Shown here one piece after another: positions 40,663 through 55,506 of a stretch of 64,000 nucleotides of DNA. Position 1 is the first letter of the stretch. The number at the start of each line of letters is the position of its first letter. The notes beneath the pieces were generated by a model that was given only the letters and a program-made list of their open reading frames with translations, ran no database searches and was not told the DNA's origin. Where the stretch lies: positions 1 through 64,000 of the forward strand of contig JANJXG010000010.1 of NCBI GenBank assembly GCA_024709145.1, written 5' to 3'. This DNA is from Bacteroidales bacterium (GTDB taxonomy: Bacteria > Bacteroidota > Bacteroidia > Bacteroidales > F082). The translations under genes were made by a program, and so were the position numbers.

Positions 40663-42519
40663 ATGAAAAATTATACTTACACGCTAATCAGGTTGTTAAT
40701 TTTCTGGATGGTTTATTTCCAGTTGCTTCGGTTGGTTTTTGTTGGCTTTTATGCCAAAAGCATCCGGGCTGGCGAAATTGAAACAGGTGAACTGTTGCAG
40801 GTGTTTATTCAATCATTGAAGCTCGATTTTTCAACAGCTTCTTACATTGGATTGATATCCATGTTGTTGTATTTCGTTTCTATTATTGTCCAAAGGCAAT
40901 TGTTATTTAAACTGGTTCAATTTTTCAATACTTCTATTATCATTATCTATGCTTTAACTGTGAGTGCCGAAATTGGCTTATATGCTGAATGGAAGACAAA
41001 GCTTTCGGCCAAAGCACTGAGTTATTTACGCCAACCCGGCGAAGTGTTTCAAACTGCTGGAGTATCACAGTTTATGTTGTTGACTGCCTTGTGGCTTTTG
41101 CTTACACTTTCGGGTGTCTGGTTATACAGAAAGTATTTCAGGCCGGAAGCAAACGCTTTCGGTAAAAGCAAACGGGATGCTTTGGCAGTTATTTGGCTTA
41201 TCCCTGTTTTGTTTTTTGGAGTCAGAGGTGGTTTTTCAGCAATCCCTGTCAGTGTTAGCTCGGCCTACTTCAGCCGTCATGCCATTTTGAATGCTGCTGC
41301 CGTCAATCCACTATACAACATTGCCTTCAGCATGCTTAATGCAGGAAAGCTTGAAAAGGAGAATGTCTTTAAAACGATGCCTGAAGAGCAAGCCCGCAAA
41401 ATTGTTAGTGAACTGCATCAGATTCAGAAGGATACGACTGTTAGAATCTTTGAAATCGACAAGCCCAATATCGTCGTGTTGCTCCTTGAAAGCTGGTCGG
41501 CCGATTTGATAGAAAGTTTGGGTGGGGAGCCTGGCATAACACCGAATTTTCATCTTTTGGAAAAGGAAGGCTTACTTTTCACCCGGTTTTATGCCAATGC
41601 CAACCGGTCGCAGCAAGCCATGGGCTCGCTGTTTGGTGGCATACCCGGAATCCCCTTTACGACGATTACCGATCACCCGGATAAGTATGCGGCTTTGCCT
41701 TCTCTTTCCAAAATATTGAAGAAATATAATTATCAGTCAGCATTTTATTTTGGTGGGCAGCTGAACTATGGAAATATTCTTTCCTATCTCATCTCCAATG
41801 ACCTGGATGTGATTGAGGAAGGAAAAGATTTACCTCAGTCTTTCGAGCGTGGCAGACTGGGCGTACACGACGGCGATTTCCTTCCTTATGTTGCAACCCG
41901 GTTGAAACTTTTACAGGAACCTTTTTTCGCCACTGCTTTTACTCTGAGCTCACATGCACCTTACGATTTTCCGATGGAGCATGTGATTGACTGGCCCTTG
42001 ATGGAGAAGCCTTTCGTGAACGGTGCTCATTATACCGATCGCGCCTTGGCTTTGTTTTTTGAACTGGCCCGGAAGCAGGAGTGGTATCAACGAACCATTT
42101 TTTTGATCATGGCCGACCATAGTAAGAATTCTTATCGCAACCATCCACTCGAAAGTTTTGAGTATCACCATATTCCTTTACTGATTTATGGCGAACCGCT
42201 CAAGCAGGAATGGAAAGGGAAAACCTACGCCAGAATTGCCGGAAACACAGATGTGCCTGCCACCTTGCTTCATCAGCTTGGGATTGATGCGGCTGATTTT
42301 TTCTGGAGTAAAAACCTTCTGAACCCTTATTACAAACCATTTGCATATTTCGAGCTCAACGAAGGACTTGGCTGGAAGCGGGACGAGGGTTATTTTGTTT
42401 GGGATAAATTTTCAAACAGGTTTTATCAAGAACAATTACCTGAGGCGGATGCCGAACGCTTTTTGTTGGAAGGACAAGCTTATCTCCAGGTTTTATACGA
42501 TGATTTTCTGGCTTATTAG
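40663..42519 (+). CDS. LTA synthase-family sulfatase/phosphotransferase
   Basis: 618 residues. About five transmembrane helices lie in the first 240 residues, then an alkaline-phosphatase-fold domain from about 267. PNIVVLLLESWS at 268-279 holds metal ligand Glu277. Ser316 in ANRSQQAMGS takes the place of the Thr nucleophile of LtaS. LIMADHSKNSYRN provides further metal ligands. Relatives transfer glycerol phosphate or phosphoethanolamine on the outer face of the inner membrane; the substrate here is unknown, as Gram-negative cells have no LTA. Start ATG 40663 is set by the promoter. Confidence 0.88.
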   Translation: MKNYTYTLIRLLIFWMVYFQLLRLVFVGFYAKSIRAGEIETGELLQVFIQSLKLDFSTASYIGLISMLLYFVSIIVQRQLLFKLVQFFNTSIIIIYALTVSAEIGLYAEWKTKLSAKALSYLRQPGEVFQTAGVSQFMLLTALWLLLTLSGVWLYRKYFRPEANAFGKSKRDALAVIWLIPVLFFGVRGGFSAIPVSVSSAYFSRHAILNAAAVNPLYNIAFSMLNAGKLEKENVFKTMPEEQARKIVSELHQIQKDTTVRIFEIDKPNIVVLLLESWSADLIESLGGEPGITPNFHLLEKEGLLFTRFYANANRSQQAMGSLFGGIPGIPFTTITDHPDKYAALPSLSKILKKYNYQSAFYFGGQLNYGNILSYLISNDLDVIEEGKDLPQSFERGRLGVHDGDFLPYVATRLKLLQEPFFATAFTLSSHAPYDFPMEHVIDWPLMEKPFVNGAHYTDRALALFFELARKQEWYQRTIFLIMADHSKNSYRNHPLESFEYHHIPLLIYGEPLKQEWKGKTYARIAGNTDVPATLLHQLGIDAADFFWSKNLLNPYYKPFAYFELNEGLGWKRDEGYFVWDKFSNRFYQEQLPEADAERFLLEGQAYLQVLYDDFLAY

Positions 42520-42537
42520 GAAGTGAATTTGGTCCGT

Positions 42538-43179
42538 TCAGACTTTTCCATCCCATTCAAGATAAAACTGATCAAGAAATTGAAGCATAAAAGCATGCCT
42601 TGCCTCAGCTCTCTTTTTCCCGGACTCAGTATTCATAAGGTCCTTAAGCTTGAGCAGTTTTTCATAGAAATGGTTAATTGTAGCCGATTGTCCGGATTGG
42701 TAGGTAGCGGTTGGAGCCTCTTTTTCAGGGTCATAAAATGGCCGCCCTTTGAATCCACCAAAACTGAAGGCTCTGGCAATGCCGATTGCGCCGATTGAAT
42801 CAAGTCTGTCGGCATCCTGAACAAGCTGAAATTCGATGCTTTTTTCGCCAAAGAAGCTGTCGGATTTTCTGAATGACATATGTTCAATGATAAACATAAT
42901 CTTATCAACAGTTTCTTTGTCAATAGCTTGTGTTTGAAGAAAGTTCTTGATTAAAGCTGGTCCGATGTTTTCGTTTCCATCATGAAATTTAGCATCCCCG
43001 ATATCATGAAGCAGGCAGGCCATCTCTGTTACAAAAACATCAGCTGCCGTTTCACCGGCCATATCCATTGCCAGTGTAGTAACCCTTTTTATGTGCCACC
43101 AATCGTGGCCGGCTTCGGCTTTTTGAAGTGATTCTTCCACAAAAAGACGGGTCTGCTGAAGTATTTCTGCTTTTATCAT
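42538..43179 (-). CDS. HD-domain phosphohydrolase
   Basis: 213 residues. The HD motif is in HDWWHIKRV (first His) and ACLLHDIGDAKF (HD pair). It is the YedJ/YpgQ-like family of metal-dependent phosphohydrolases that act on nucleotides or similar small phosphates. The start overlaps the stop of the P-loop kinase gene by 4 bases (ATGA), so translation is probably coupled. The substrate is unknown. Confidence 0.9.
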   Translation of the reverse strand: MIKAEILQQTRLFVEESLQKAEAGHDWWHIKRVTTLAMDMAGETAADVFVTEMACLLHDIGDAKFHDGNENIGPALIKNFLQTQAIDKETVDKIMFIIEHMSFRKSDSFFGEKSIEFQLVQDADRLDSIGAIGIARAFSFGGFKGRPFYDPEKEAPTATYQSGQSATINHFYEKLLKLKDLMNTESGKKRAEARHAFMLQFLDQFYLEWDGKV

Positions 43180-43676
43180 TGTGCTTCAAGGTATTCAATA
43201 ATATGATTAAGTGCAGGTTTGAAGTTGCCATTAACCCTGAAGGTGTTGTCAACAGCAGGCGGTTGTCCATATTTCAGGTAACTGTTCCAGATGTGTTCAA
43301 TATACCAGTCTGGTTCATGGCCCCATCTGTTGTCGAGCGATTTTCTTTCCATGAATTTGGGGTGCGTCAGCTCAACAAAGATTTTTTTATCCAAAAGTGT
43401 CAACAGAGGTTGACTCCAGAAAATCATCAAGCCTTCGGCAATAACGATTTCGTTCACAAGTGCCTCGTTCTGAATAGCTTGTAAAAATCGGCTATGATCA
43501 ATGGAATCCGGATGCTCCCAATCAATGCGTTCCCGAATCAAGGGAATGTTTTCTATGGCTTTGATAAAATCATCCTGACACAGTGTAATCACTTTTTTAT
43601 CAGAATAATGCTCACGTAACTCCCTGGCCAGGGTCGTTTTACCTGCTGTACTGACGCCTCCGATTCCTATTATCAT
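43176..43676 (-). CDS. P-loop nucleoside kinase-like protein
   Basis: 166 residues. GIGGVSTAGKTTLARE at 4-19 is the Walker A region, CQDDFIK follows as in uridine and nicotinamide riboside kinases, and LDNRWGHEPDWYIEHIWNSYLKYG is the lid-like C-terminal region. It resembles the short NRK/uridine kinase type more than cytidylate kinase. Cytoplasmic; substrate not assigned. It follows a beta-helix lipoprotein by 13 bases and overlaps the HD gene, so these form one unit. Confidence 0.85.
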   Translation of the reverse strand: MIIGIGGVSTAGKTTLARELREHYSDKKVITLCQDDFIKAIENIPLIRERIDWEHPDSIDHSRFLQAIQNEALVNEIVIAEGLMIFWSQPLLTLLDKKIFVELTHPKFMERKSLDNRWGHEPDWYIEHIWNSYLKYGQPPAVDNTFRVNGNFKPALNHIIEYLEAQ

Positions 43677-43689
43677 GCATCAATGGTTA

Positions 43690-45159
43690 TTATTTTTCTT
43701 CTTGTAACCTGGTTACAAATTGCAAAGCACCAAGGTCAGGTCGATTGATCCGGTCAACACCCTTCAGGTCATAAGGAAGCTCAGCCGCTATTTCAGGTTT
43801 GCCTGCACCAAGTGCAGGGGATAAGGAATCGGGTTCATAATCGAAATTTTCATAATCCCTGAAAAGTGGGTCTTCATTGAAAAGACAATTCTCAAAAACG
43901 GCATTTGACCTCCAGCTATCGGTAAGTTTTATCAAACAATGATCCAGCAAGTAATTGGTGTCGGCACCGGCAACGAGTTCCCTGGCTATTTCATCTTCGA
44001 GGGAACCATAAATAATGCTGTTGGCAAATTCGAGGTACAAATTAACGGGGATTGGATTTTCGAGGCTGTCGACAAGAAAATTATTGAAAAACAATGCAGG
44101 GGTATTTCGAACTCCATAGGTCCATTGGTTGGCTAAGGTACTGTGCCTGAATCTGTATGCGCCACCTGCTGTTAAGGCTGCTGCATAGTTGCCACAGTTG
44201 GCAACAATCACGTTGGCAGCATCTATGGCAAATAGCCTGCCTAAGATACCAATACCGGAATGATTTTCGATGATTGTATTGCTGATGTTCAGTTGATTTG
44301 ATGTGGCGCGCAGAAAAGATTCTGCCTGAATGCCAATGAATCCGTTTCTGATGATGGCATGATTAATCTCATGGTTGAATCCCTGACGGCCTTCCATCAG
44401 CCAAATACGATCCCACTGTCCTGGAAGGTCTCTGTATTCAGCATCGAGCCTGTCGCCCTGGAAAACGACCGGTGCTTCAAGTGTTCCCTCAACCTTTAGC
44501 ACACCATCAACATAGGCCCACAAACCTGATTTGTCGTGAAAATGAACTTTTGTTCCGGCTTCAATTAGCAACGTCCCATAGGAATTAATCAATGCGTATC
44601 CATAGATTACATAGGGCTTTCCGGCAGTCCAAACAACAGTTTCGAGGCTGTCTGCAACAATTTTGAATTTCGGAAAATTGCCAACCTGCTGATCTGCGAT
44701 AATATAATTAGCGTCCTGCCCCCATGCAACAAGTTTTACGGTCTGATTGTTTCCGTTGGTCAGGAAGCTGAGCTCATCCTCAACTACATAAGGATTTGAT
44801 TCATCCCGAGGATCAATTGTTGCCTTGACAAGTACATACAAACTATCGTTGGCAGCAAGTTCTATATCACTGATTTGAATACCTGATACTCCATCCACAT
44901 TCATTCGGAAAACTGAATTGTTACCGGCAGCAAGTCTGATATCGCTAATGCGAATGCGTTTGTTGCTGTTATTGTATACCATTAACCGCTTTGTAACTGT
45001 TCCAATGGACGTAAACACCGTGTCAAAAACAACCGAATCGGTTGAAAAAGATAAACTTATATTTTTATCATCACTGATAATGTCGTCTTTTCTACAGGAA
45101 AAGCCTGCAACGGATAAAATAAAGATAAAAGAAATATACCAAACAATTTGTCGATTCAT
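43690..45159 (-). CDS. Beta-helix lipoprotein (pectate-lyase-like fold)
   Basis: 489 residues. Signal peptide to Cys22 in SVAGFSC, suggesting lipidation. The N-terminal part (about 35-150) looks like an immunoglobulin-like beta domain with FSTDSVVFDTVFTSIGTVT. The rest has parallel beta-helix features: right-handed repeats with stretches such as INHAIIRNGFIGIQAE and NISNTIIENHSGIGI. The terminal DLGALQ is typical of secreted Bacteroidota proteins of this type. No catalytic residue is evident, so it may bind carbohydrate. First gene of the operon with kinase and HD hydrolase; start ATG 45159, the upstream TTG lies in the -7 box. Confidence 0.82.
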   Translation of the reverse strand: MNRQIVWYISFIFILSVAGFSCRKDDIISDDKNISLSFSTDSVVFDTVFTSIGTVTKRLMVYNNSNKRIRISDIRLAAGNNSVFRMNVDGVSGIQISDIELAANDSLYVLVKATIDPRDESNPYVVEDELSFLTNGNNQTVKLVAWGQDANYIIADQQVGNFPKFKIVADSLETVVWTAGKPYVIYGYALINSYGTLLIEAGTKVHFHDKSGLWAYVDGVLKVEGTLEAPVVFQGDRLDAEYRDLPGQWDRIWLMEGRQGFNHEINHAIIRNGFIGIQAESFLRATSNQLNISNTIIENHSGIGILGRLFAIDAANVIVANCGNYAAALTAGGAYRFRHSTLANQWTYGVRNTPALFFNNFLVDSLENPIPVNLYLEFANSIIYGSLEDEIARELVAGADTNYLLDHCLIKLTDSWRSNAVFENCLFNEDPLFRDYENFDYEPDSLSPALGAGKPEIAAELPYDLKGVDRINRPDLGALQFVTRLQEEK

Positions 45160-45189
45160 GGCGATGTGGGCTATGTTGCCTTCAGGCTG

Positions 45190-45197
45190 CAAAGTTA
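45190..45197 (-). promoter_or_regulatory. -7 box of the beta-helix lipoprotein gene
   Basis: TAACTTTG on the minus strand, 30 bases before ATG 45159; the TTG start of the longer frame lies within it. Confidence 0.5.
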
Positions 45198-45235
45198 GTT
45201 AACTATTGCAAAGCGCCGAATTTTCCCTTTTATTG

Positions 45236-45243
45236 TATCTTTG
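45236..45243 (+). promoter_or_regulatory. -7 box of the small outer-membrane protein gene
   Basis: TATCTTTG, 20 bases before ATG 45264. No -33 TTG within 17-23 bases. Confidence 0.5.
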
Positions 45244-45263
45244 GCGAACAAAACGACAAGCAC

Positions 45264-45833
45264 ATGCATCGCAATTTAAATTTTGCACTTATCAGAAGGC
45301 TGACTATATTCATTCTGCTATCCTTTTTTTTTAACGGGACCTCGATGGCTCAGCAGGTAGCCGGTGCACCGGAAAAACAAAGCAGGTGGGTTTTCGGAGG
45401 CGACTTCGGACTCGGTTTTTCGTCCTATGGTTCAAATGTACTCATTTCACCTACGGCAGGTTACAAAATTACACCTGCCTGGGAAGGTGGTGTCAGGCTT
45501 ACCTATAATTATTACAGTTATAAAGACAGGTCACTGAAGTTTTCTTCCCATAATTATGGAGGTGGGCTTTATACAACTTATGTAATCTTCAAAGGCCTTT
45601 TTGCACATGCCGAAAATGAATTATTAAGCTATGAACGAGCAATCATTTCTCAAAATGCTGTGGTGGAAACAGAAAGGATAGCAGTGCATTCAATCTTCAT
45701 AGGAGGTGGCTACAGACAATATTTCACTGCTAACAGCTTTGCCAGTATCATGATCTTATACAATCTCAACGAAACACTTGACTCTCCCTACGAAAATCCC
45801 ATGTTTAGAATAGGATTTGGTTTTGGGCTTTAA
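45264..45833 (+). CDS. Outer-membrane beta-barrel protein, about 8 strands
   Basis: 189 residues. Signal peptide of about 28 residues ending SMAQQ. Alternating beta-strands from WVFGGDFGLGFSSYG to the terminal MFRIGFGFGL, which has the terminal aromatic-containing strand. It looks like the small OmpA-like or outer-membrane protein beta-barrel family of Bacteroidota. It is convergent with galK, with one base between the stops. Function unknown. Confidence 0.85.
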   Translation: MHRNLNFALIRRLTIFILLSFFFNGTSMAQQVAGAPEKQSRWVFGGDFGLGFSSYGSNVLISPTAGYKITPAWEGGVRLTYNYYSYKDRSLKFSSHNYGGGLYTTYVIFKGLFAHAENELLSYERAIISQNAVVETERIAVHSIFIGGGYRQYFTANSFASIMILYNLNETLDSPYENPMFRIGFGFGL

Positions 45834-45834
45834 A

Positions 45835-46998
45835 CTAAAAGATTCTTTTCCCACCATCGCTGGTTTCAGCCACATAAAAAGATGGCTCCAATCCGGTTTT
45901 TCTCAAATAACCTGATCCCACATTTCCAATAAAATCATCTACGGCATCTGATGCTACTATGCTCACGGTGCAGCCGCCAAAGCCGCCTCCGGTCATGCGA
46001 CTTCCTAACACACCTTCTATTTTAAGTGCCTCTTCGAACATGGTATCAAGCTCGTGGCCGGTTACTTCGTAATCGTGTTTCAACGAAAGGTGAGAGGCTT
46101 TCATCAGCTCGCCAAATGCGCGAAGATTTCCTTCCCTGAGGTAGTTGACTGCTTTTTTCGTTCGTTCTGTCTCAGTGACCACATGTTTGGCGCGTCTGCG
46201 GATGACGGGGTCAGTGATGGTGTGTTGCAACGACTCGAATTCAGTATTGCCAAGCTGAGCGAGGTTACTGATATCGACCGATTGTCTGAGAATTTGCAAG
46301 GCGTTTCCACACTCAGATACCCTTTGGTTATAAAGGCCGCTGTCGAGTTTGTGGGGACTGTTGGTATTGCTGATCAAAATCTTATACCCATCCAGGCGAA
46401 GCGGAACTTGTTCAAAAGCAAGACTGTCGCAATTGAGGAAAACTGCATGGTCTTTTTTTGCCATGGCTGAGGCAAACTGATCCATAATACCACATTGAAC
46501 CCCTGCGAACTCATGTTCCGCTTTTTGACTCATCAGAGCCAGCGAAGGGGCATCAAATCCAGTTTGATAAGTGTCGTTGAGGGCAACTGCTGTCACCACT
46601 TCAATGGCAGCTGAGGAGGACAGCCCTGCTCCTGCAGGAACATCTCCATAGAAAAGCATGTCGATTCCATGGTTGAAACGGATGCCTTTTTTCAAAAACT
46701 GAGCAAAGACTCCAATCACGTAATTTACCCATTCCTGATCAACTTTCTGATTCAGTTCTGACAAATCCAACTCGGCTTCAAAGGGCATATTCATTGATTT
46801 CAGCCTGATTTTACCGTCGTCATTTTTGCGGATCATGCAGTAATTGCCGAAGCTGATGGCACAGGGAAAAACAAATCCACCATTGTAATCTGTATGCTCA
46901 CCAATAAGATTGATTCTGCCTGGCGAAAAGAAGCCAGCTGTTGCTTCACCTCCGTATTTTTCTGTGAAGGTTTTTTGGAGTCGTGAAATGTCGGTCAT
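45835..46998 (-). CDS. galK: Galactokinase
   Basis: GHMP kinase of 387 residues; phosphorylates galactose at C1 with ATP in the Leloir pathway. SPGRINLIGEHTDYNGG near 25-41 is the galactokinase signature and contains the sugar-binding Glu-His-Asp. PAGAGLSSSAAIEV is the GHMP ATP-binding motif. MTGGGFGGCTVSIV is motif 3. It is the last gene of the six-gene minus-strand operon. No galT, galE or galM is present in the window. Confidence 0.96.
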   Translation of the reverse strand: MTDISRLQKTFTEKYGGEATAGFFSPGRINLIGEHTDYNGGFVFPCAISFGNYCMIRKNDDGKIRLKSMNMPFEAELDLSELNQKVDQEWVNYVIGVFAQFLKKGIRFNHGIDMLFYGDVPAGAGLSSSAAIEVVTAVALNDTYQTGFDAPSLALMSQKAEHEFAGVQCGIMDQFASAMAKKDHAVFLNCDSLAFEQVPLRLDGYKILISNTNSPHKLDSGLYNQRVSECGNALQILRQSVDISNLAQLGNTEFESLQHTITDPVIRRRAKHVVTETERTKKAVNYLREGNLRAFGELMKASHLSLKHDYEVTGHELDTMFEEALKIEGVLGSRMTGGGFGGCTVSIVASDAVDDFIGNVGSGYLRKTGLEPSFYVAETSDGGKRIF

Positions 46999-47019
46999 AA
47001 ATTTCTTTTTTTTGATTAA

Positions 47020-48267
47020 CTACATAAAAATGAGCCAATAAAGATAAAAGAGTGTAAAGCCTGTTAAAAAGACAATGCCTATCCACGACCAAACCCTGAG
47101 ATAAAAAGCAGGCTGAAAAGCCTGATCGATCCTTGGTGACATGATTACTTTGTAATTGAGAAAGGCCAGAACAGGGGCGGTAACAAAGGAAACGCTTGTT
47201 GCAAAATCAACCATCAATCGCATGGTGCTGCCCGAAATCCAGATCAAAGCGATGACACCGGCAGAAAGCAGGAAAATCCAGAATTTGTAGTTTAATCTTT
47301 TAGCCAGTCCGGGCATTCCGGAAAACAACAACAGGCTGCTGTGAGTAAGTGTACGGGGATAAACATCTGTTACTGTCAGTGTTGTACTCAGCATCGTAGT
47401 CACGGCAGCAATGGCAATTACGGGATAAGCCCATTGCCCGATCGTTGAGGTATACATACCAATCAACTGACCGGCAAAGATGGCACCATTGGGGGAGGGA
47501 CTTTGGTCAGACCCGTACATCACCAGCGCTCCCAAAGCAAGGAAGGCAGCTGCAACCAGCATGGTTCCGAAAAAACCCACACGAAACTCGATGAGAACAG
47601 ATTTCAGGTCTGGTTTTTCATCCATGTGCATAAACTTCGACTGACTCCAAAGTGATGTCCATACCACAATATCAATCGGGGCCGGCATCCAGCCAATAAA
47701 GGCAATCAGAAAGAAAAGATGGGTTTTGTTGAAAATGTCAAACGAAGGCAGGTTTTCAGGAATTGGCCTGTTAAGATTTAACGCGCCGAAAACAGCTATG
47801 AGCGTAGAGAGCGTGAGTAAAACAATAACAATTTTGATCATCCTGTCGAGCATCTTAAAATGACCGGCGATCAATAAAACCATGGTCAAAACAACCAGGA
47901 TACTACTCATGGCTGCTGCGCTTAAATGCGAAGCGAAAATGTAGTTAAGTAAACCCGCAGTGACCATCGTTAAAGCTGCCTGTATTGGAAACATGCTTAG
48001 AACCGACAGAATAAAAAACAATACCAGAATCCATTTTCCCGTCTCGAAATAGGCCTCAACCAATGTTTTTCCGGTCGCAAGCACATACCGGCTTCCAATT
48101 TCAAAAAAAGGAAACTTCAGCATATTGGCTGCAAGTAGTACCCACATCAGTTCAAAACCAAAATCGGCACCAGCTCGTGTGGATTGAACCAGGTGTGAAA
48201 CTCCGATGGCTGCTCCTGCATACAACAAGCCCGGACCGAGCAGTGAAAAATATTTTTTCATGTTCAT
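47020..48267 (-). CDS. NRAMP-like transporter without canonical metal-site motifs
   Basis: 415 residues, about 11 helices. The first helix GPGLLYAGAAIGVSHLV aligns with NRAMP TM1, but the metal-binding DPGN is replaced by GVSH at 22-25. In TM6 the canonical MPH motif is MPAP at 194-197. The rest, such as DVYPRTLTHS and FDIFNKTHLFFLIAFIGWMP, follows the NRAMP/APC fold. It probably does not move Mn2+ or Fe2+ in the ordinary way, and may carry another substrate. Its start overlaps the aroE stop by 4 bases. Confidence 0.85.
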   Translation of the reverse strand: MNMKKYFSLLGPGLLYAGAAIGVSHLVQSTRAGADFGFELMWVLLAANMLKFPFFEIGSRYVLATGKTLVEAYFETGKWILVLFFILSVLSMFPIQAALTMVTAGLLNYIFASHLSAAAMSSILVVLTMVLLIAGHFKMLDRMIKIVIVLLTLSTLIAVFGALNLNRPIPENLPSFDIFNKTHLFFLIAFIGWMPAPIDIVVWTSLWSQSKFMHMDEKPDLKSVLIEFRVGFFGTMLVAAAFLALGALVMYGSDQSPSPNGAIFAGQLIGMYTSTIGQWAYPVIAIAAVTTMLSTTLTVTDVYPRTLTHSSLLLFSGMPGLAKRLNYKFWIFLLSAGVIALIWISGSTMRLMVDFATSVSFVTAPVLAFLNYKVIMSPRIDQAFQPAFYLRVWSWIGIVFLTGFTLFYLYWLIFM

Positions 48268-49016
48268 AGTGATTGCCAGATTTTCCAGGATGCTTCTGCC
48301 TGCATAACAAACATCATCACGCCGTTGGCAGTCTTTGCTCCGCGTTCTTTTCCCTTTTTCAGAAATAGTGTTTCCTCCGGATTATAAATTGCATCAATGA
48401 GCACGTGTTCATTTCCAATCAAATGATATGGGATATCGGGAGCCTGATCAATGTTTGGATACATGCCAACCGGCGTGGTGTTGATAATCAATTTGTACTG
48501 ATCCATCACAGGGGGTGTGATCAAGCCGTAAATCAACTGGTCTGACTTGAGGTTGTGTCTTCCAACCGACCGGAAAGGAATTCCAGCTTTTCTAAGTACA
48601 TAACGCACAGCCCTGGCTGCCCCGCCGGTGCCAAGAACTAAAGCTTTTATATTGGTATCCGGCTTAATGACTGAATTGAGGGTAAGCTCAAATCCATAGG
48701 CATCTGTATTGTAGCCTTTAAGTATTACCTTGTTCTTCAGGCGCTTAATGGCAATAGTATTGACGGCGCCGATTACTTTGGCCCCGAAATCAATTTCGTC
48801 CAAATAGCTCATCACTTCCTGTTTATAGGGTATCGTCACATTTAATCCGCGTAAATCCGGATTAGCTTCGATCAACAGGGGCAATTCGGCAATGTTGTCA
48901 AGCGGAAATAACACATATCTGGCGTCAAGGTTATTGGCATCGAACCTGGCAGTAAAATGCTTCTTGGAATAGGAGTGTGATAGGGGCTTGCCGATTAACC
49001 CGTAAACTGCTGTCAT
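48264..49016 (-). CDS. aroE: Shikimate dehydrogenase
   Basis: 250 residues; reduces 3-dehydroshikimate to shikimate with NADPH in aromatic amino-acid synthesis. Substrate motifs are GLIGKPLSHSYSKKHF at 6-21 and GLNVTIPYKQEV. The NADP-binding glycine loop is GTGGAARAVRYVL, and the later NTTPVGMYPN is diagnostic. It follows the DUF368 gene with a 2-base gap and overlaps the next start, indicating translational coupling. No other aro gene is in the window. Confidence 0.95.
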   Translation of the reverse strand: MTAVYGLIGKPLSHSYSKKHFTARFDANNLDARYVLFPLDNIAELPLLIEANPDLRGLNVTIPYKQEVMSYLDEIDFGAKVIGAVNTIAIKRLKNKVILKGYNTDAYGFELTLNSVIKPDTNIKALVLGTGGAARAVRYVLRKAGIPFRSVGRHNLKSDQLIYGLITPPVMDQYKLIINTTPVGMYPNIDQAPDIPYHLIGNEHVLIDAIYNPEETLFLKKGKERGAKTANGVMMFVMQAEASWKIWQSL

Positions 49017-49018
49017 TT

Positions 49019-49951
49019 TTAATGTTTTTCAGTTGGTTTGGAAGCGCTTTTTTCTATCAGCCAAATAGTCAATATACCAAGCAACATCAACAAGACAGCC
49101 ATGATTTCGGTTGGGCCAAATTGTGTCGGGAGAATCATTTCATAGCGCTCAACAACAGATTCACCGTTTTTTATCAGAATTTCGCCAAACTGGTCTTTTA
49201 CAAAAACACTTTCCTTCCAAGGCCAAATCACACCCAGCGAACCGAAAATAAAACCGGTGAGTAGCGCAATGGTCGGGTCTTTATACCGCTTAAAAAGCCA
49301 GGAAAGGAAATGAGAAAACAGGATCAATCCAATAATCATCCCAAAGAGAACAGGTGTTAAGATGCTGAAATCTAAATTGTTAATTGCTTCAATGGCAACC
49401 AGCTGGTAATTTCCCATGAGAATTAGAACAAACGAACCAGAAATCCCGGGCAGGATCATGCTGCAAACAGCGGCCACTCCACAAACCATCAGATAGAAAA
49501 AGTTACGGTTTTCAGCTGCAGGCGTCATAAAGGTAATTGCAATGGCAAGGGTTGCCCCCGCGACCAAGCTGATGAAGGCTGCGAGGCTCCACTTTTGGAC
49601 AGTCACCCCCACAAAGTAAACGCTCGCCACAATAAGCCCAAAAAAATAGGCCCAGATATAAACAGGATAAAGCGTGAAAAGTATTTCAAAAAGCCTTGCA
49701 AGGCTCAGGATAGCAATTAAAACACCACTGAAAACTTTTACCAGAAACCATAAATCGGTCTGAAGGGCAAAAAGTTTAAAATTTCCTTGAAGAAGCAATC
49801 TCAAAGCTGAAGGATTGATCGATTTAAAAGCATGAATCAGCCGTTCGAAGATGCCTGTTATCAGAGCGATCGTGCCACCGGAAACACCCGGAATGATATT
49901 GGCGGCTCCCATGGCAACACCCTTCATGATCAAAAGAATACTCTCCTTCAT
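49019..49951 (-). CDS. DUF368 membrane protein (PopT-type, undecaprenyl phosphate translocase family)
   Basis: 310 residues, about eight hydrophobic helices. The signature MGAANIIPGVSGGTIALITGIFERLI near 15-40 is diagnostic of DUF368, and MILPGISGSFVLILMGNY is the second repeat. Family members were shown to flip undecaprenyl phosphate back to the cytoplasm for recycling; this family has been named PopT. Assigning that function here rests on family membership. It starts 12 bases after the aldehyde dehydrogenase and precedes aroE in the same operon. Confidence 0.9.
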   Translation of the reverse strand: MKESILLIMKGVAMGAANIIPGVSGGTIALITGIFERLIHAFKSINPSALRLLLQGNFKLFALQTDLWFLVKVFSGVLIAILSLARLFEILFTLYPVYIWAYFFGLIVASVYFVGVTVQKWSLAAFISLVAGATLAIAITFMTPAAENRNFFYLMVCGVAAVCSMILPGISGSFVLILMGNYQLVAIEAINNLDFSILTPVLFGMIIGLILFSHFLSWLFKRYKDPTIALLTGFIFGSLGVIWPWKESVFVKDQFGEILIKNGESVVERYEMILPTQFGPTEIMAVLLMLLGILTIWLIEKSASKPTEKH

Positions 49952-49963
49952 ATTTTTTTCTGC

Positions 49964-51340
49964 TTATCTCAATATTGCCTTAATGAGCTTTAGTTTATTA
50001 CCAAATGGCGGATATCTCAGCGGTATGTCGAGCCATGTAGCACGTTTCATAACAGGCTTCAGGTGCGAAAAGGCAGCGAATCCCGCTTTGCCATGATAAC
50101 TGCCAATACCGCTATAACCTGCACCACCAAAGGGAAGGGCACCATTTGTGAAATGCATAATGGTGTCGTTCACGGTGATTCCACCTGCACTGACTCGGGT
50201 AAGAATCAGTTTCAATCTTTTGCGGTCGTTTGTGAAAACATAAAATGCCAGCGGCTTTGGCTTTTGCCTGATGAAAGCAATCGCCTCTTCAGTTGTTTGA
50301 TAACTGATTACAGGTAAAAGAGGTCCAAAAATCTCCTCTTGCATCAGAGCAGAATCAATGTTGGGATGGGTGATGATGGTAAGCGGCACATATTTTTCTG
50401 CTTCATCTATCTCACCCCCGGATACTATTTTTCCTCCCAGCATCAGTTGTTGCATACGCAAAACATTCATTCTGTTGATGATACGAGGAAAATCGGGATG
50501 TTTCTTCAGGTCTTTCCCATACATTTCCACAACAGCTTCTTGCATAGCATCTACAAGCTTGTCATGAACTGAATGATGAACCAAAACATAGTCAGGTGCA
50601 ATACAGGTTTGCCCTGCATTAATGCCCTTTCCCCACATGATTCTTTTTGCTGCCAGGTCAATGTTGACTGTTTCATCGACTAAAACCGGACTCTTTCCTC
50701 CTAACTCCAATACAACTGGCACAAGTAATTCGGCAGCAGCTTTCATTATCAACTTACCAACACGTGGACTGCCTGTGAAGAAAATCATGTCAAAAGGTAA
50801 TTGTAGTAGCTGTTGACTTACACTGGCATCACCATTGACAACATGCAGAAATTCCGGTTCAAAATGATCGTTAATGAGTTTCTCGATGATTTTGCTGGTG
50901 TGTGTGCTGATTTCTGAAGGTTTGATGATGCTGCAGTTACCGGCAGCAATGGAGGCAACAAGTGGTGCGATGGCGAGCTGAAAAGGATAATTCCAGGGTG
51001 AAATAATAAGTGTAACACCGTGTGGCTCTGGAAAAATAAAACTACTTGATGGAAAGGATGCGAGTGGGTCAGCTACTTTGGCCGGTTTCGACCAGCGTTT
51101 CGTTTTGTTAATAAATAATCTTAATTCCTCAAGCACAATCCCTATCTCAGTTGCATAGGCCTCAAAGGCTGATTTCCCGAGATCCTGTTTTAACGCAGTG
51201 GCAATATCATTTTCGCAGGCTAAAATGAGTTTGCGTAGTTTTCGAAGCTGTTCAATTCTGAAATTAGCTGAAATCGTTTTGCCCTGTTCAAAAAACTTTT
51301 TTTGAAAGCCAATGAGGGTTTGTAAATCTGGTGATGGCAT
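49964..51340 (-). CDS. Aldehyde dehydrogenase (class 3-like)
   Basis: 458 residues, NAD(P)-dependent oxidation of an aldehyde to acid. NAD site segment ISPWNYPFQLAIAP at 113-126; catalytic Glu212 in LELGGKSP and Cys246 in NAGQTCIAPD. It is the short type without the extra N-terminal part of class 1 enzymes; terminal hydrophobic stretch LDIPLRYPPF is typical of class 3. The substrate may be a long-chain or aromatic aldehyde. It follows the TPR gene by 21 bases. Confidence 0.94.
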   Translation of the reverse strand: MPSPDLQTLIGFQKKFFEQGKTISANFRIEQLRKLRKLILACENDIATALKQDLGKSAFEAYATEIGIVLEELRLFINKTKRWSKPAKVADPLASFPSSSFIFPEPHGVTLIISPWNYPFQLAIAPLVASIAAGNCSIIKPSEISTHTSKIIEKLINDHFEPEFLHVVNGDASVSQQLLQLPFDMIFFTGSPRVGKLIMKAAAELLVPVVLELGGKSPVLVDETVNIDLAAKRIMWGKGINAGQTCIAPDYVLVHHSVHDKLVDAMQEAVVEMYGKDLKKHPDFPRIINRMNVLRMQQLMLGGKIVSGGEIDEAEKYVPLTIITHPNIDSALMQEEIFGPLLPVISYQTTEEAIAFIRQKPKPLAFYVFTNDRKRLKLILTRVSAGGITVNDTIMHFTNGALPFGGAGYSGIGSYHGKAGFAAFSHLKPVMKRATWLDIPLRYPPFGNKLKLIKAILR

Positions 51341-51361
51341 ATACCTGATGCTTTGAATAAG

Positions 51362-52786
51362 CTATTCTACCTTATCTGCCGGTTTGTATTGCGTAATCAG
51401 TTCAATTACTTTCGGATTATATTTGATTGACGGCATAAATTCAAACAACTCGTGATGTTGGTCAAAATCTAGTTCCAAAGCTGATTCCAGATAAAAATAG
51501 GCCTGAGAAAGATTCTTGTTCAGGATAAGCGCACTGACAAGCCGGTATATGATACTGGCATTTCTAGGCTGGTGTATAAGGCCTGTTTTGAGCACCTGCA
51601 CTGCTTTTTCTGTTTCTCCTTCAATAATATACATATAGGCGTATTCTTTCCAAAGGTCAGGATCCTGCGGGTCAAGCTCCTCAATACGCTGAAACTGTTC
51701 CTTGGCTTTATCATACCTTTTGGTTTTGATGTAGAGGTCGGCAGCGATTAACTTAAATTCGGTGTTCAGATCATCAAATCCGATGGCCTTTTCGATGTGA
51801 TAAATAGACATGGCAGTATCACCTTGTTCATCATAAATTACCGAAAGGCCTGCCCAGGCATCAGGTAGCATCTCATCCGAAATGACGGCCTGCTGGTAAA
51901 AATCCATGGCTTTTTCATAATCTTGAAGTTTTTCGTGACATTCGCCGATAAAATAGAGTGTCATGGCCTCAAAAGGTTCATAAACAGCCGTTTCATGATA
52001 CAATTCGAGTGCTTTTTGATATTGACCCAGCGACGACCAGGCTTGTGCCATGTTAATGTAGGCAGGCACATTGGTTTCGTCTATAGCAATCACATATTCA
52101 AAAGCATCGATGGCTTTCTCGTATAACTCCAGGTGATTGTATGATAAGCCCAGATTGAACCAGCCCGCTGCTATGCCCGGGTTTTTGTCGACGTAGTGCA
52201 GGAAAAATTCAATTTCGCCATCGAAATTGGAGGCGAGCTCATAACACAAGCCGATTTCAAATAAGATCTGTTCAGGATTCTCACTGATCTCCAATGCTTT
52301 ATTTAAATAAATCAAAGCGGTGTCGTAGGCACCCATATTCTCATACTCATAGGCGATGGAAGAATAAATTTCTTCAACTTCATCTTCGTCTACAATGACT
52401 AATGCCTTCTCGTACTCCTGAACTGCTTTCGAAAAGTCGAGCATCATGCTGTATACTGATCCTTTGGTCATCAAAATATCAACATCAGCAGGCTCTTTGG
52501 TCTCAATTTCATTGAGAAGGTTCAGCGCGTTAACGTATTTACCTTCGGAAGCCATTTGTCTGGCTGAAATAATTCTCAGCCGGTTGTTGTCAGGATGCAC
52601 CTCCAAACCTATCGACAGAGCCAGCAAGGCTTTTTCGTTGTTAAGCTGATTGTGGTAGAATTCAATCAGCAATTCAAACTCCTCTGAATCAAAATAGATG
52701 TCATCATGCTGACGTAGCATTTGCTCGAAGCGTTCGGCAAGACCTTCTACCTGATAATCATCGTCCCACTGAAATTCTTCACCCAT
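51362..52786 (-). CDS. Tetratricopeptide-repeat protein
   Basis: 474 residues made of about eleven TPR units of 34 residues, visible as repeated AWF/GLSYNHLELYEKAIDAFEYVI-like patterns from about 60 to 440. The N-terminus is very acidic (EEFQWDDDYQVEGLAERFEQ). No signal peptide is seen, so it should be cytoplasmic. TPR repeats bind partner proteins; the partner is unknown. It is the first gene of the operon and has its own -7 box. Confidence 0.9.
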   Translation of the reverse strand: MGEEFQWDDDYQVEGLAERFEQMLRQHDDIYFDSEEFELLIEFYHNQLNNEKALLALSIGLEVHPDNNRLRIISARQMASEGKYVNALNLLNEIETKEPADVDILMTKGSVYSMMLDFSKAVQEYEKALVIVDEDEVEEIYSSIAYEYENMGAYDTALIYLNKALEISENPEQILFEIGLCYELASNFDGEIEFFLHYVDKNPGIAAGWFNLGLSYNHLELYEKAIDAFEYVIAIDETNVPAYINMAQAWSSLGQYQKALELYHETAVYEPFEAMTLYFIGECHEKLQDYEKAMDFYQQAVISDEMLPDAWAGLSVIYDEQGDTAMSIYHIEKAIGFDDLNTEFKLIAADLYIKTKRYDKAKEQFQRIEELDPQDPDLWKEYAYMYIIEGETEKAVQVLKTGLIHQPRNASIIYRLVSALILNKNLSQAYFYLESALELDFDQHHELFEFMPSIKYNPKVIELITQYKPADKVE

Positions 52787-52811
52787 TTTTTTATTTCTTA
52801 CAAATCCGTTG

Positions 52812-52819
52812 CAAAAATA
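52812..52819 (-). promoter_or_regulatory. -7 box of the six-gene TPR-to-galK operon
   Basis: TATTTTTG on the minus strand, 25 bases before ATG 52786; no -33 TTG at the standard distance. Confidence 0.5.
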
Positions 52820-53102
52820 ATAATTTAACTGTCATGACCCTTTTTAGGGGTTTATTCTAGTCATGCTGTCCGGTATACTGGAATTAACCGTCTGACTTAC
52901 AAAATATTAAATGAATCAGTCCGAAAGTCCCTTACGTTTTTCACAGAGCCGGGCTGTAAAGATATTATCGAGGAATGATTTTTTTATCAAAATCACTTTT
53001 TTTTTATTAACCATCATTCTAGTTTCGTTTGTTAATATTCTATCTACTGGAAAAAGATTGAATAATTTCTGCCTGTATTAATTGTTGAATTATTTAGTTG
53101 AC

Positions 53103-53136
53103 TTGGATATAAAGCAATGAAGAATAGGTACATTTG
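53103..53136 (+). promoter_or_regulatory. Promoter of the phosphohexomutase gene
   Basis: TTG at 53103-53105, 23 bases, then TACATTTG at 53129-53136; ATG 53155 follows 18 bases later. Confidence 0.6.
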
Positions 53137-53154
53137 CGGCAAATTTTACCAATT

Positions 53155-54543
53155 ATGACACTTATTAAGTCCATTTCGGGAATCAGGGGCACAATCGGAG
53201 GCGAAACTGGTGAAAACCTTACACCTATTGATATAGTGCGTTTTACAATTGCTTTTGCTGCCTTGATGCGCAAACAGCTACACGAAAAACGTGCTTTAAG
53301 GGTGGTGGTTGGCAGGGATGCCAGAGTTTCCGGTGAAATGGTTAACCACCTGGTATGCGGTACTTTGATGTCGGTGGGTGCTGATGTTTTCGATCTTGGA
53401 CTTTCCACAACACCAACTGTTGAAATAGCTGTACCAGGCATGCATGCTGATGCTGGTATTATCCTCACTGCGAGTCACAACCCAGGGCAGTGGAATGCAC
53501 TTAAGTTGCTTAATGCCAAAGGGGAGTTTATTTCGGGTGCCGAAGGCGCTGAATTACTCGAAATAGCTGATAATCCTTCGTTTCATTTCAACAAAGTGGA
53601 CGAATTAGGTTCCTATAATAAGTATCACGGTTGGATCGATAAACACATTCAAATGGTGATGGATTTGCCGCTTGTGGATGCCGAAGCTATCAGGGCAGCC
53701 CATTTTAAGATTGTTGTCGACGCTGTAAACTCTACCGGCGGAATTGCTTTACCTGCCTTGCTTCATGCACTTGGAGTTGAAACAGTTCATGAATTATATT
53801 GCAACCCGACTGGCTTGTTTCCACACAATCCCGAGCCACTGCCTGAGCATCTCACCGAGCTTTCGGCGCTCGTCAAAAAAACAGGAAGCGATCTTGGATT
53901 TGTTGTCGATCCCGATGTTGACAGGCTTGCCATAGTCGATGAAAATGGTGATATGTTTGGTGAGGAATATACCCTCGTCGCTGTTGCTGATTATGTGTTG
54001 AAGCATCAGCCGGGAAATACAGTTTCCAATTTAAGTTCGACACGTGCACTTGCTGATGTTACGAAAGCCCATGGAATGGAATATTTTGCAGCAGCAGTTG
54101 GAGAGGTAAATGTTGTTGAAATGATGAAAAAGAAGCAGGCAGTAATCGGTGGGGAAGGGAATGGAGGTATCATTTACCCTGAACTGCACTACGGCCGTGA
54201 TGCCCTGGTTGGTGTCGCCTTGTTTCTGACACATCTTGCTCATTCGGAAATGCGTTGCTCTGAATTAAGAAAGACATACCCTGATTACTTTATGTCGAAA
54301 AATAAAATCAATTTGTCTGCTGAAACAGATGTAGATCAAATACTTGCATCAATTGCTGCTGATTTTTCAAAAGAAAAGGTCAGCACCATCGACGGGGTAA
54401 AAATCGATTTTGAGGAAGGCTGGGTACATTTGCGCAAATCAAATACCGAGCCCATCATCCGGGTTTATTCTGAAGCCGGAAGCCCGGAAAGAGCTGCCGG
54501 ACTTGCTGATTTGCTGCTTCGCTGGATGTCGGAAAAAGGGTGA
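53155..54543 (+). CDS. glmM: Phosphoglucosamine mutase/phosphohexomutase
   Basis: 462 residues. Converts glucosamine-6-phosphate to glucosamine-1-phosphate for UDP-GlcNAc synthesis. Start KSISGIRGTIGG, phosphoserine loop LTASHNP with Ser107, metal site DPDVDRLAIVD near 254, sugar site EGNGGIIYPELHYGRDA, and the C-terminal phosphate site RKSNTEPIIRVYSEA. GlmM or a close phosphomannomutase/phosphoglucomutase of the same group is possible, because the family is hard to split by eye. ATG 53155 is set by the promoter and conserved start; the longer frame is not coding. Confidence 0.9.
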   Translation: MTLIKSISGIRGTIGGETGENLTPIDIVRFTIAFAALMRKQLHEKRALRVVVGRDARVSGEMVNHLVCGTLMSVGADVFDLGLSTTPTVEIAVPGMHADAGIILTASHNPGQWNALKLLNAKGEFISGAEGAELLEIADNPSFHFNKVDELGSYNKYHGWIDKHIQMVMDLPLVDAEAIRAAHFKIVVDAVNSTGGIALPALLHALGVETVHELYCNPTGLFPHNPEPLPEHLTELSALVKKTGSDLGFVVDPDVDRLAIVDENGDMFGEEYTLVAVADYVLKHQPGNTVSNLSSTRALADVTKAHGMEYFAAAVGEVNVVEMMKKKQAVIGGEGNGGIIYPELHYGRDALVGVALFLTHLAHSEMRCSELRKTYPDYFMSKNKINLSAETDVDQILASIAADFSKEKVSTIDGVKIDFEEGWVHLRKSNTEPIIRVYSEAGSPERAAGLADLLLRWMSEKG

Positions 54544-54616
54544 TTAAGTCATTTTTTTCACGCCTGAATATTGAATGCCGGAAATGTATTATATTGCTGC
54601 CTTAAAATTGCTGCTT

Positions 54617-54898
54617 ATGAAGAAAAAGGGCAAATCGAAAAAAAAGAACCGAAAACGCAAGATAAAATTCAAGGAAGTTAGGTTCAAATTGTCGGAAAAA
54701 CAGTACCGATCCCTGACAAATTATTGCAAGGCCAGAAAAACAACAGTTATTAAGCTGATTAAAAAAAGCATCGACAAGTTTGCCAATGGCTACGATATTC
54801 AGGTTCCGAAAGAATACTATGTTTCCGAAAGGCAGCTTGATTTGTTTAACGACAGCACCCCGGCCACTTTGGTGAAGCAAGCCCTGAATGAGGCTTAA
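54617..54898 (+). CDS. Small basic protein, possible ribbon-helix-helix type
   Basis: 93 residues. A very basic N-terminus (KKKGKSKKKNRKRK) precedes RFKLSEKQYRSLTNYCKARKTT then VIKLIKKSIDKF, a pattern like a CopG/Arc ribbon-helix-helix: a beta-strand, two helices and the TTVIKLI turn. Probably a DNA-binding protein; I do not recognise a named family. It shares its final bases with recR: the TTAA at 54895-54898 gives the stop to both convergent genes. Start ATG 54617 is the last Met before the basic run; an earlier one is at 54575. Confidence 0.72.
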   Translation: MKKKGKSKKKNRKRKIKFKEVRFKLSEKQYRSLTNYCKARKTTVIKLIKKSIDKFANGYDIQVPKEYYVSERQLDLFNDSTPATLVKQALNEA

Positions 54899-55506
54899 CG
54901 ACTTTCGAACGGAATTCGGTTCAGAATAGACCTTCCCAGTGTAATTTCATCGGCATATTCGAGGGCATCGCCAATGGCCACACCTTTTGCAATTGAGGTT
55001 ATTTTCAAATTTTCCTTGCTGATCTGCCTGAAAAGGTAATAGGCAGTTGTGTCACCTTCGATAGTGGCTGGCAGAGCCATGATCACCTCCCGAAAACTTT
55101 CCTCCTTCATTCTTTGAATCAAAGCATTGATATTTAAATCATTAGGTGAAACGCCTTCAACAGGATTAATCACACCGCCCAAAACGTGATAGAGCCCATG
55201 GAAGCTGGCTGTACGCTCAATAGCCATGACATCACGCATATCCTCAACAACGCACAAAAGACCCTCATCGCGCCTGGGATTGCTGCAGATAGCGCAGATT
55301 TCGTGGTCGGAAATATTGTGACAGCGGCGGCAAAAAATGATTTTCTCCCTCAGCTGCTGCAAAGAGCGGGCTAGCGCTTCGGTGCGTGAACCGTCTTCTC
55401 TGAGCAAATGAAGGGCAAGACGTAAGGCTGTCTTTTTTCCGATGCCGGGCAAACGCGACAATTCGTTTACGGCATTTTCCAGTAGGGTTGAGGAATATTC
55501 TGTCAA
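54895..55506 (-). CDS. recR: Recombination mediator RecR
   Basis: 203 residues. Helix-hairpin-helix RLPGIGKKTALRLALHLL at 18-35, Cys4 zinc finger CRRCHNISDHEICAICSNP near 57-75, Toprim domain from LLCVVEDMRDVMAIE to the terminus, with ATIEGDTTAYYL and ITSIAKGVAIGDALEYADEITLG. It works with RecF/RecO in gap repair. The start is TTG 55506; no ATG precedes the conserved first residues. Its promoter box lies 14 bases upstream. Confidence 0.96.
   Translation of the reverse strand: MTEYSSTLLENAVNELSRLPGIGKKTALRLALHLLREDGSRTEALARSLQQLREKIIFCRRCHNISDHEICAICSNPRRDEGLLCVVEDMRDVMAIERTASFHGLYHVLGGVINPVEGVSPNDLNINALIQRMKEESFREVIMALPATIEGDTTAYYLFRQISKENLKITSIAKGVAIGDALEYADEITLGRSILNRIPFESR

Follow-up and report, generated by a model that had tools for sequence, protein, structure and literature searches.

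The Pfam family PF01566 (Nramp) has been divided into Slc11, NRMT and an outgroup, the last termed 'orphan' in one of the two papers concerned (PMC9606685 and PMC10606218, like the other papers cited here, accessible in part). NRMTs are defined by DxxG in TM1 and TxxA/T in TM6 (PMC8806188), and an M-box riboswitch has been reported upstream of part of this group. Nramp-related proteins, among which MntG is placed, are described as paraphyletic and as having neither the proton pathway nor the motifs of TM1 and TM6, with Glu, Asp or Asn at the position of the TM3 Glu in several clades; in the accessible part of that account, the groups are uncharacterised save for the NRMT-like proteins and 'G-motif 3' (MntG) (PMC12873925).

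YcsG of B. subtilis was renamed MntG as a manganese importer, its overexpression raising cell Mn (PMC10448178, in part), and an efp mutant is relieved of a Mn-related growth defect when MntG is induced (PMC13055313, in part). Similarly, loss of MumT, which has less than 25% identity to reported NRAMPs, leads to lower cell Mn in A. baumannii (PMC5050338, in part). Since Mn import is reported for MntG and MumT alike, loss of the canonical motifs does not exclude metal transport. In addition, growth of C. glutamicum on 5-oxoproline requires PxpT, a homologue of YcsG (PMC13274462, in part). The 5-oxoproline account of PxpT and the Mn account of MntG are unreconciled, and there is no sign that either protein belongs to the clade described below.

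The transporter considered here lies in a window of 64,000 nucleotides, the whole stretch of DNA that was analysed. An earlier note had observed that it lacks both canonical metal-binding motifs. This observation is correct, and since Nramp-related proteins without both motifs have already been described (PMC12873925, in part), the double absence is to be expected and does not amount to a new kind of protein. The transporter shares with the Nramp-related proteins its Pfam family, its length, the missing TM1 and TM6 motifs and a position outside the canonical clade. Its own branch is labelled the SH clade here, after an invariant Ser-His in TM1, and the labels GAGD, GSGE, GPGT and GPGF used for other clades are likewise taken from motifs. 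No literature account of the SH clade was found under a recognisable name.

The transporter gene and its family assignment

The open reading frame begins with ATG at 48267 and runs to 47020, and the opposite (plus) strand carries stops throughout (Table 1). Hydropathy averaged over 71 aligned rows gave 13 stretches above the threshold; as two are short fragments that adjoin a longer stretch, about 11 segments remain. The protein matches PF01566 with 50.8 bits, above the gathering cut-off of 29.8, and passes the NCBIfam model NF037982, 'Nramp family divalent metal transporter' (Nramp_1 equivalog; 60.6, cut-off 50). Scores for the MntH model NF001923 (41.2 vs 430) and for TIGR01197 (25.9 vs 272.5) fall far short of the respective cut-offs. 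The name given by NF037982 is possibly misleading, because the branch has neither the Asp and Asn of canonical TM1 nor the His of TM6.

Homology to canonical NRAMP/MntH proteins (ScaDMT 5M95, DraNramp, DMT1) extends over most of the length, the clade profile matching 5m95 at positions 31-417 with an E-value of 8.4e-10. An AlphaFold2 model of the transporter, built from two sequences only, reached a pLDDT of 38. The 3.8 Mb genome of the host, which is 99% complete, contains no second PF01566 match.

Table 1. Features of the transporter and of the adjoining genes, in window coordinates
Feature	Position	Strand	Basis
Nramp-related transporter P0001	47020..48267	minus	ORF, PF01566; 415 aa, about 11 hydrophobic segments
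TM1 site, residues 22-25, GVSH (replaces DPGN)	48193..48204	minus	Gap-free alignment and conservation
TM3, residues 84-107, no Asp/Glu where canonical Nramps have a conserved Glu	47947..48018	minus	71 rows
TM6 site, residues 192-199, GWMPAPID (replaces GATVMPHN)	47671..47694	minus	Alignment; residue 199 always Asp/Glu
D301-R305, acidic and basic residues after TM8	47353..47367	minus	D301 and R305 71/71
Galactokinase galK, 21 bases downstream of transporter	45835..46998	minus	NF003705, 504.9 bits
aroE-like, 250 aa	48264..49016	minus	TIGR00507, 177.5 bits (below cut-off 200.2); PF08501
DUF368 / polyprenyl-phosphate transporter-like	49019..49951	minus	PF04018, 275.7 bits

Residues of TM1, TM6 and TM3

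In HMMER comparisons with a plant aluminium transporter (8ont), NRAMP1 (9f6p) and NRAMP2 (9f6n), GPG...GVSH...AGA falls on GPG...DP[GS]N...AGA without gaps, and the same gap-free pairing was reproduced by MAFFT in 77 rows. Because of this, G22 is assigned to the canonical Asp position and H25 to the Asn position. The replacement of DPGN by GVSH, which the earlier note had read from the single protein, is thereby confirmed, and no equivalent of DPGN was found elsewhere in the helix.

The substituted residues are strongly conserved. G22, S24, H25, T30, W193, M194 and P195 are invariant in 57 of 57 rows, a set made up of the query and L032 together with 55 of the 65 further Bacteroidota genomes that have a strong match; the motif residues were thus read in all but ten of the 66 such genomes of the phylum. 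The same residues are also invariant (71/71) after enlargement by 14 rows, which were chosen by a motif filter that all 14 loci passed and include one (L073) possibly from the same genome as L032. The sequence of L068 contains 37 X. Invariance in both sets argues that the replaced site is conserved, a product of neither chance nor decay. A pseudogenised Nramp that lost its motifs by drift is hardly credible, as the lost canonical residues themselves, and nothing more, speak for it; the reading frame is intact, full-length orthologues share 36-77% identity with it, and the replacement residues are invariant across the 57 rows.

In TM6, MPAP does occur at residues 194-197 as the earlier note stated, and the His of MPH is absent, while the pairing of MP with its canonical counterpart proved ambiguous. 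M194-P195 falls on the canonical MP in HMMER comparison with solved MntH and in hhalign comparison with canonical Nramps. A196-P197 takes that place when MAFFT is anchored on the invariant Gly, as it does in hhalign comparison with the GPGT clade. The His is missing under both registers and the Met is kept in the first only. The register is thus uncertain by two residues, and the pairing of A196-P197 with MP, which needs fewer gaps, is preferred but cannot be proven. Residue 199 is Asp in 60 and Glu in 11 of the 71 rows.

TM3 is free of Asp and Glu at positions 84-107 in all 71 rows, which sets the SH clade apart from those Nramp-related clades reported with Glu, Asp or Asn there (PMC12873925, in part). 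With a PF01566 score above gathering and the canonical residues absent at TM1, TM3 and TM6, the transporter fits the description of an Nramp-related protein. Of the features of canonical Slc11, it lacks DPGN, the His of MPH, the TM3 Glu and the grouping with canonical proteins in the tree.

Placement among PF01566 clades

Alignment A1 comprised 30 of 40 wide loci, P0001, L032 and three plasmid-collection loci. At E 1e-3 the clade HMM found no ORF in 12 of the 57 loci L084-L140, and these are not in the alignment (L085-L089, L093, L095, L097, L106, L111, L123 and L125); it also missed L116 and L117, which were added by their coordinates. In an unrooted maximum-likelihood tree of 55 proteins, which sampled 26 of 35 SH-clade sequences and 9 of 22 canonical ones, the SH clade forms one side of a branch with support of 100/99. 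The canonical Nramps are united with 100/100, and the NRMT-type, GPGT, GAGD and GSGE proteins are each separate. Canonical and NRMT-type proteins stand together (97/91), with GPGT adjoining (99/91) and GAGD further out, and on the opposite side the SH clade is joined by GSGE and an Azospirillum protein with a long branch.

The earlier note had proposed a phylogeny including the NRMT branch, and in this one the SH clade is apart from both the canonical and the NRMT-type rows. Its idea of a distinct branch is upheld by the tree and by the absence of the TM1 residues and the TM6 His throughout the examined rows of the branch. Profile comparison with the SH clade gave scores of 204 for GAGD, 165 for GSGE, 123 for GPGT, 101 for canonical and 56 for NRMT-type proteins, a rough ranking because each compared profile comprises no more than 2 to 8 sequences (2 for NRMT-type). 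The nearest clade differs by method, being GSGE in the tree and GAGD by profile. Proteins of the canonical and NRMT types have Asp at the canonical Asp position, and the SH, GAGD, GSGE, GPGT and GPGF clades and a single GPGS row have Gly. The Asn position holds Asn in canonical, Gly in NRMT-type, His in SH, Asp in GAGD, Glu in GSGE, Thr in GPGT, Phe in GPGF and Ser in GPGS proteins.

These comparisons make a magnesium transporter of the NRMT kind very improbable. NRMTs are likewise without the canonical motif (PMC8806188, in part), and EleNRMT (7QIA) belongs to the same fold family, has a non-canonical metal site and is weakly matched (E 0.016). However, NRMTs keep the TM1 Asp (DxxG) and TxxA/T in TM6, where the SH clade has GxxH and, in the Gly-anchored register, WxxA. 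Moreover, the two NRMT-type rows, assigned by the DxxG/TxxA motif alone, form a separate branch with the canonical Nramps, their similarity by profile is the lowest of the five (a 2-sequence profile), and an Rfam scan of positions 42000-55000 at gathering score gave no match, hence no M-box riboswitch.

Distribution of the SH clade

Of 395 Bacteroidota genomes, 66 carry a strong orthologue (E < 1e-70), counting that of the window. Orthologues are found in many genera. Identity to the orthologues of the phylum, the window itself apart, is 36-47%, and the next matches are distant at 1e-11 to 1e-12. One relative with 77% identity, in a Bacteroidetes MAG, was the sole yield of a contig scan by short peptide patterns that were probably too specific. 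Two orthologues are listed with an in-match stop codon, one TGA and one TAG (G143:C8:14400-15611, at L018 and L062, and G581:C318:1409-2653).

Members with 33-37% identity were also found in plasmid-collection records of Photobacterium, Pseudoalteromonas and Neisseria gonorrhoeae. The gonococcal member (L116, 6914-8164) is the sole PF01566 match of its chromosome. NGO1455 of N. gonorrhoeae has been named 'putative NRAMP family' (PMC1802743, in part) and, because of that single match at the L116 gene, is probably an SH-clade member.

Gene neighbourhood

The stop of the aroE-like gene overlaps the start of the transporter by four bases (ATGA). The aroE-like protein is short, with its N-terminal Pfam domain alone detected. 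In each of the 11 best-scoring loci of the bacterium's own family an aroE gene adjoins the transporter, as does galK in two of these and in the window. Seven loci from other families are without matches to aroE, DUF368 and galK, and one of the seven has a weak aldehyde-dehydrogenase match. The operon with aroE, galK and DUF368, which the earlier note had listed as context, therefore does not serve as a clue and is taken as local history and not as function.

Neighbours were compared at 45 loci, in 44 of which the transporter was found. In family f25, the recurrent neighbours are a haemolysin-III-like protein, a protein of 978 aa that matches no Pfam family, DUF2911, an M14 peptidase and a baeRF protein; in family f7, they are an ECF sigma factor, a lipoyl-synthase-like radical SAM protein and a glycosyltransferase. 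The neighbourhood was rejected as a substrate clue, as the neighbours are family-specific and nothing informative is common across families. Neither neighbours nor regulators indicate an organic substrate.

TM1-Gly clades and pxpA

PxpA (PF03746) is matched in 57 of 296 Bacteroidota genomes, 31 of which also carry an SH protein (hand count). At 23 of the 30 best-scoring pxpA loci, the same strand carries a PF01566 ORF no more than about 1.5 kb away (15 GPGT, 8 GPGF), and all 23 proteins have Gly at the TM1 Asp position. This linkage, together with the need for PxpT on 5-oxoproline, ties the TM1-Gly clades to organic metabolism, and the adjacency suggests organic substrates for them. The window's genome has no PxpA (PF03746) match, and the SH transporter is not beside pxpABC.

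The GPGT loci beside pxpA are L149, L154-L157, L160, L163, L164, L166-L168, L170, L171, L173 and L174. Their proteins show in the TM3 Y..GN spacing and the TM6 T-V-Y the substitutions given for the 'orphan outgroup' in the accessible part of PMC10606218, and because of this match that outgroup may be a clade of 5-oxoproline transporters. The second pxpA-linked group, with IGPGF in TM1 and GGTVGGY in TM6 (L145-L148, L153, L159, L161 and L162), is perhaps of the YcsG/PxpT type. YcsG/MntG and PxpT are assigned to the NRAMP family by the respective papers, and the pxpA-linked Bacteroidota proteins, taken as their counterparts, share the TM1 Gly with the SH transporter but have GPGT or GPGF where it has GVSH.

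The GAGD-type proteins and relatives (L118, L119, L141, L142 and L143) are named 'Nramp family divalent metal transporter' in their records. L143 (Rhodococcus) adjoins an amidase and an Lrp/AsnC regulator, and L141 (Mesobacillus) lies beside CoA-transferase and thiolase genes, neighbours that give hints of organic substrates.

Proposed function and substrate

The transporter is probably a secondary carrier of the LeuT/APC fold, from the Nramp-related SH clade, that does not use the canonical Mn/Fe site. On family knowledge, a protein of this fold would work by alternating access through a rocking bundle, its substrate would sit between TM1 and TM6, the two broken helices, and a canonical-type proton pathway would be absent. 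A role as a canonical H+-coupled Mn2+/Fe2+ importer is unlikely, because the TM1 Asp and Asn, the TM6 His and the TM3 acid are lost and the canonical proton pathway is presumed to be missing.

For the predicted substrate, a small organic solute is given somewhat under an even chance, a metal or other cation at a different site (H25, D/E199) comes close behind, and a small share is left to other or unresolved cases. On the organic side, it is conceivable, though short of probable, that the whole clade is a non-metal branch. The SH proteins would then be widespread carriers of small organic solutes with a site of TM1 Ser-His and TM6 Trp/Asp, divalent-cation transport in PF01566 would track the TM1 Asp, and the TM1-Gly clades would carry metabolites. 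If so, databases mislabel all TM1-Gly clades as divalent metal transporters.

It is also possible, with a likelihood again below even, that a divalent metal is still carried through a rebuilt site, in which His25, Asp/Glu199 and perhaps Met194 replace the Asp, Asn and Met. From the alignment, H25 and D/E199 could act as a metal-holding pair, both positions being conserved in 71 of 71 rows, and the registers from HMMER and hhalign place M194 where the canonical Met lies. Furthermore, the transporter is the sole PF01566 protein of its genome, MntG and MumT are reported to import Mn, and PF01566 proteins of canonical strength (E < 1e-100, counted by score and not by motif) occur in 1 of 66 genomes with the SH protein (G364) vs 146 of 329 others. 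Against a rebuilt site, the TM1 Asp is gone, TM3 is without an acidic residue, and within the bacterium's own family a canonical-strength Nramp, again by score, is present in 8 of 48 carriers vs 15 of 125 non-carriers (hand count). Because the own family shows no mutual exclusion, the pattern across the phylum reads as shared ancestry. Functional replacement of MntH, which that pattern had suggested, was not borne out by the own-family counts and was rejected.

If the clade does carry something else, annotations are wrong in many Bacteroidota and some Proteobacteria, the gonococcus included. The SH clade would also help in understanding the origin or loss of a metal site within an amino-acid-transporter-like fold.

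Distant PF01566 matches in the same family

In genus g184 of the bacterium's own family, 44 genomes have an ORF, mostly of 460-570 aa, with a weak PF01566 match (hand count). E-values range from 2e-7 to 8e-4 and all but one of the matches are below the cut-off, for example G561:C9:46862-47884 and G493:C33:18523-19545. These ORFs are perhaps a further distant group.
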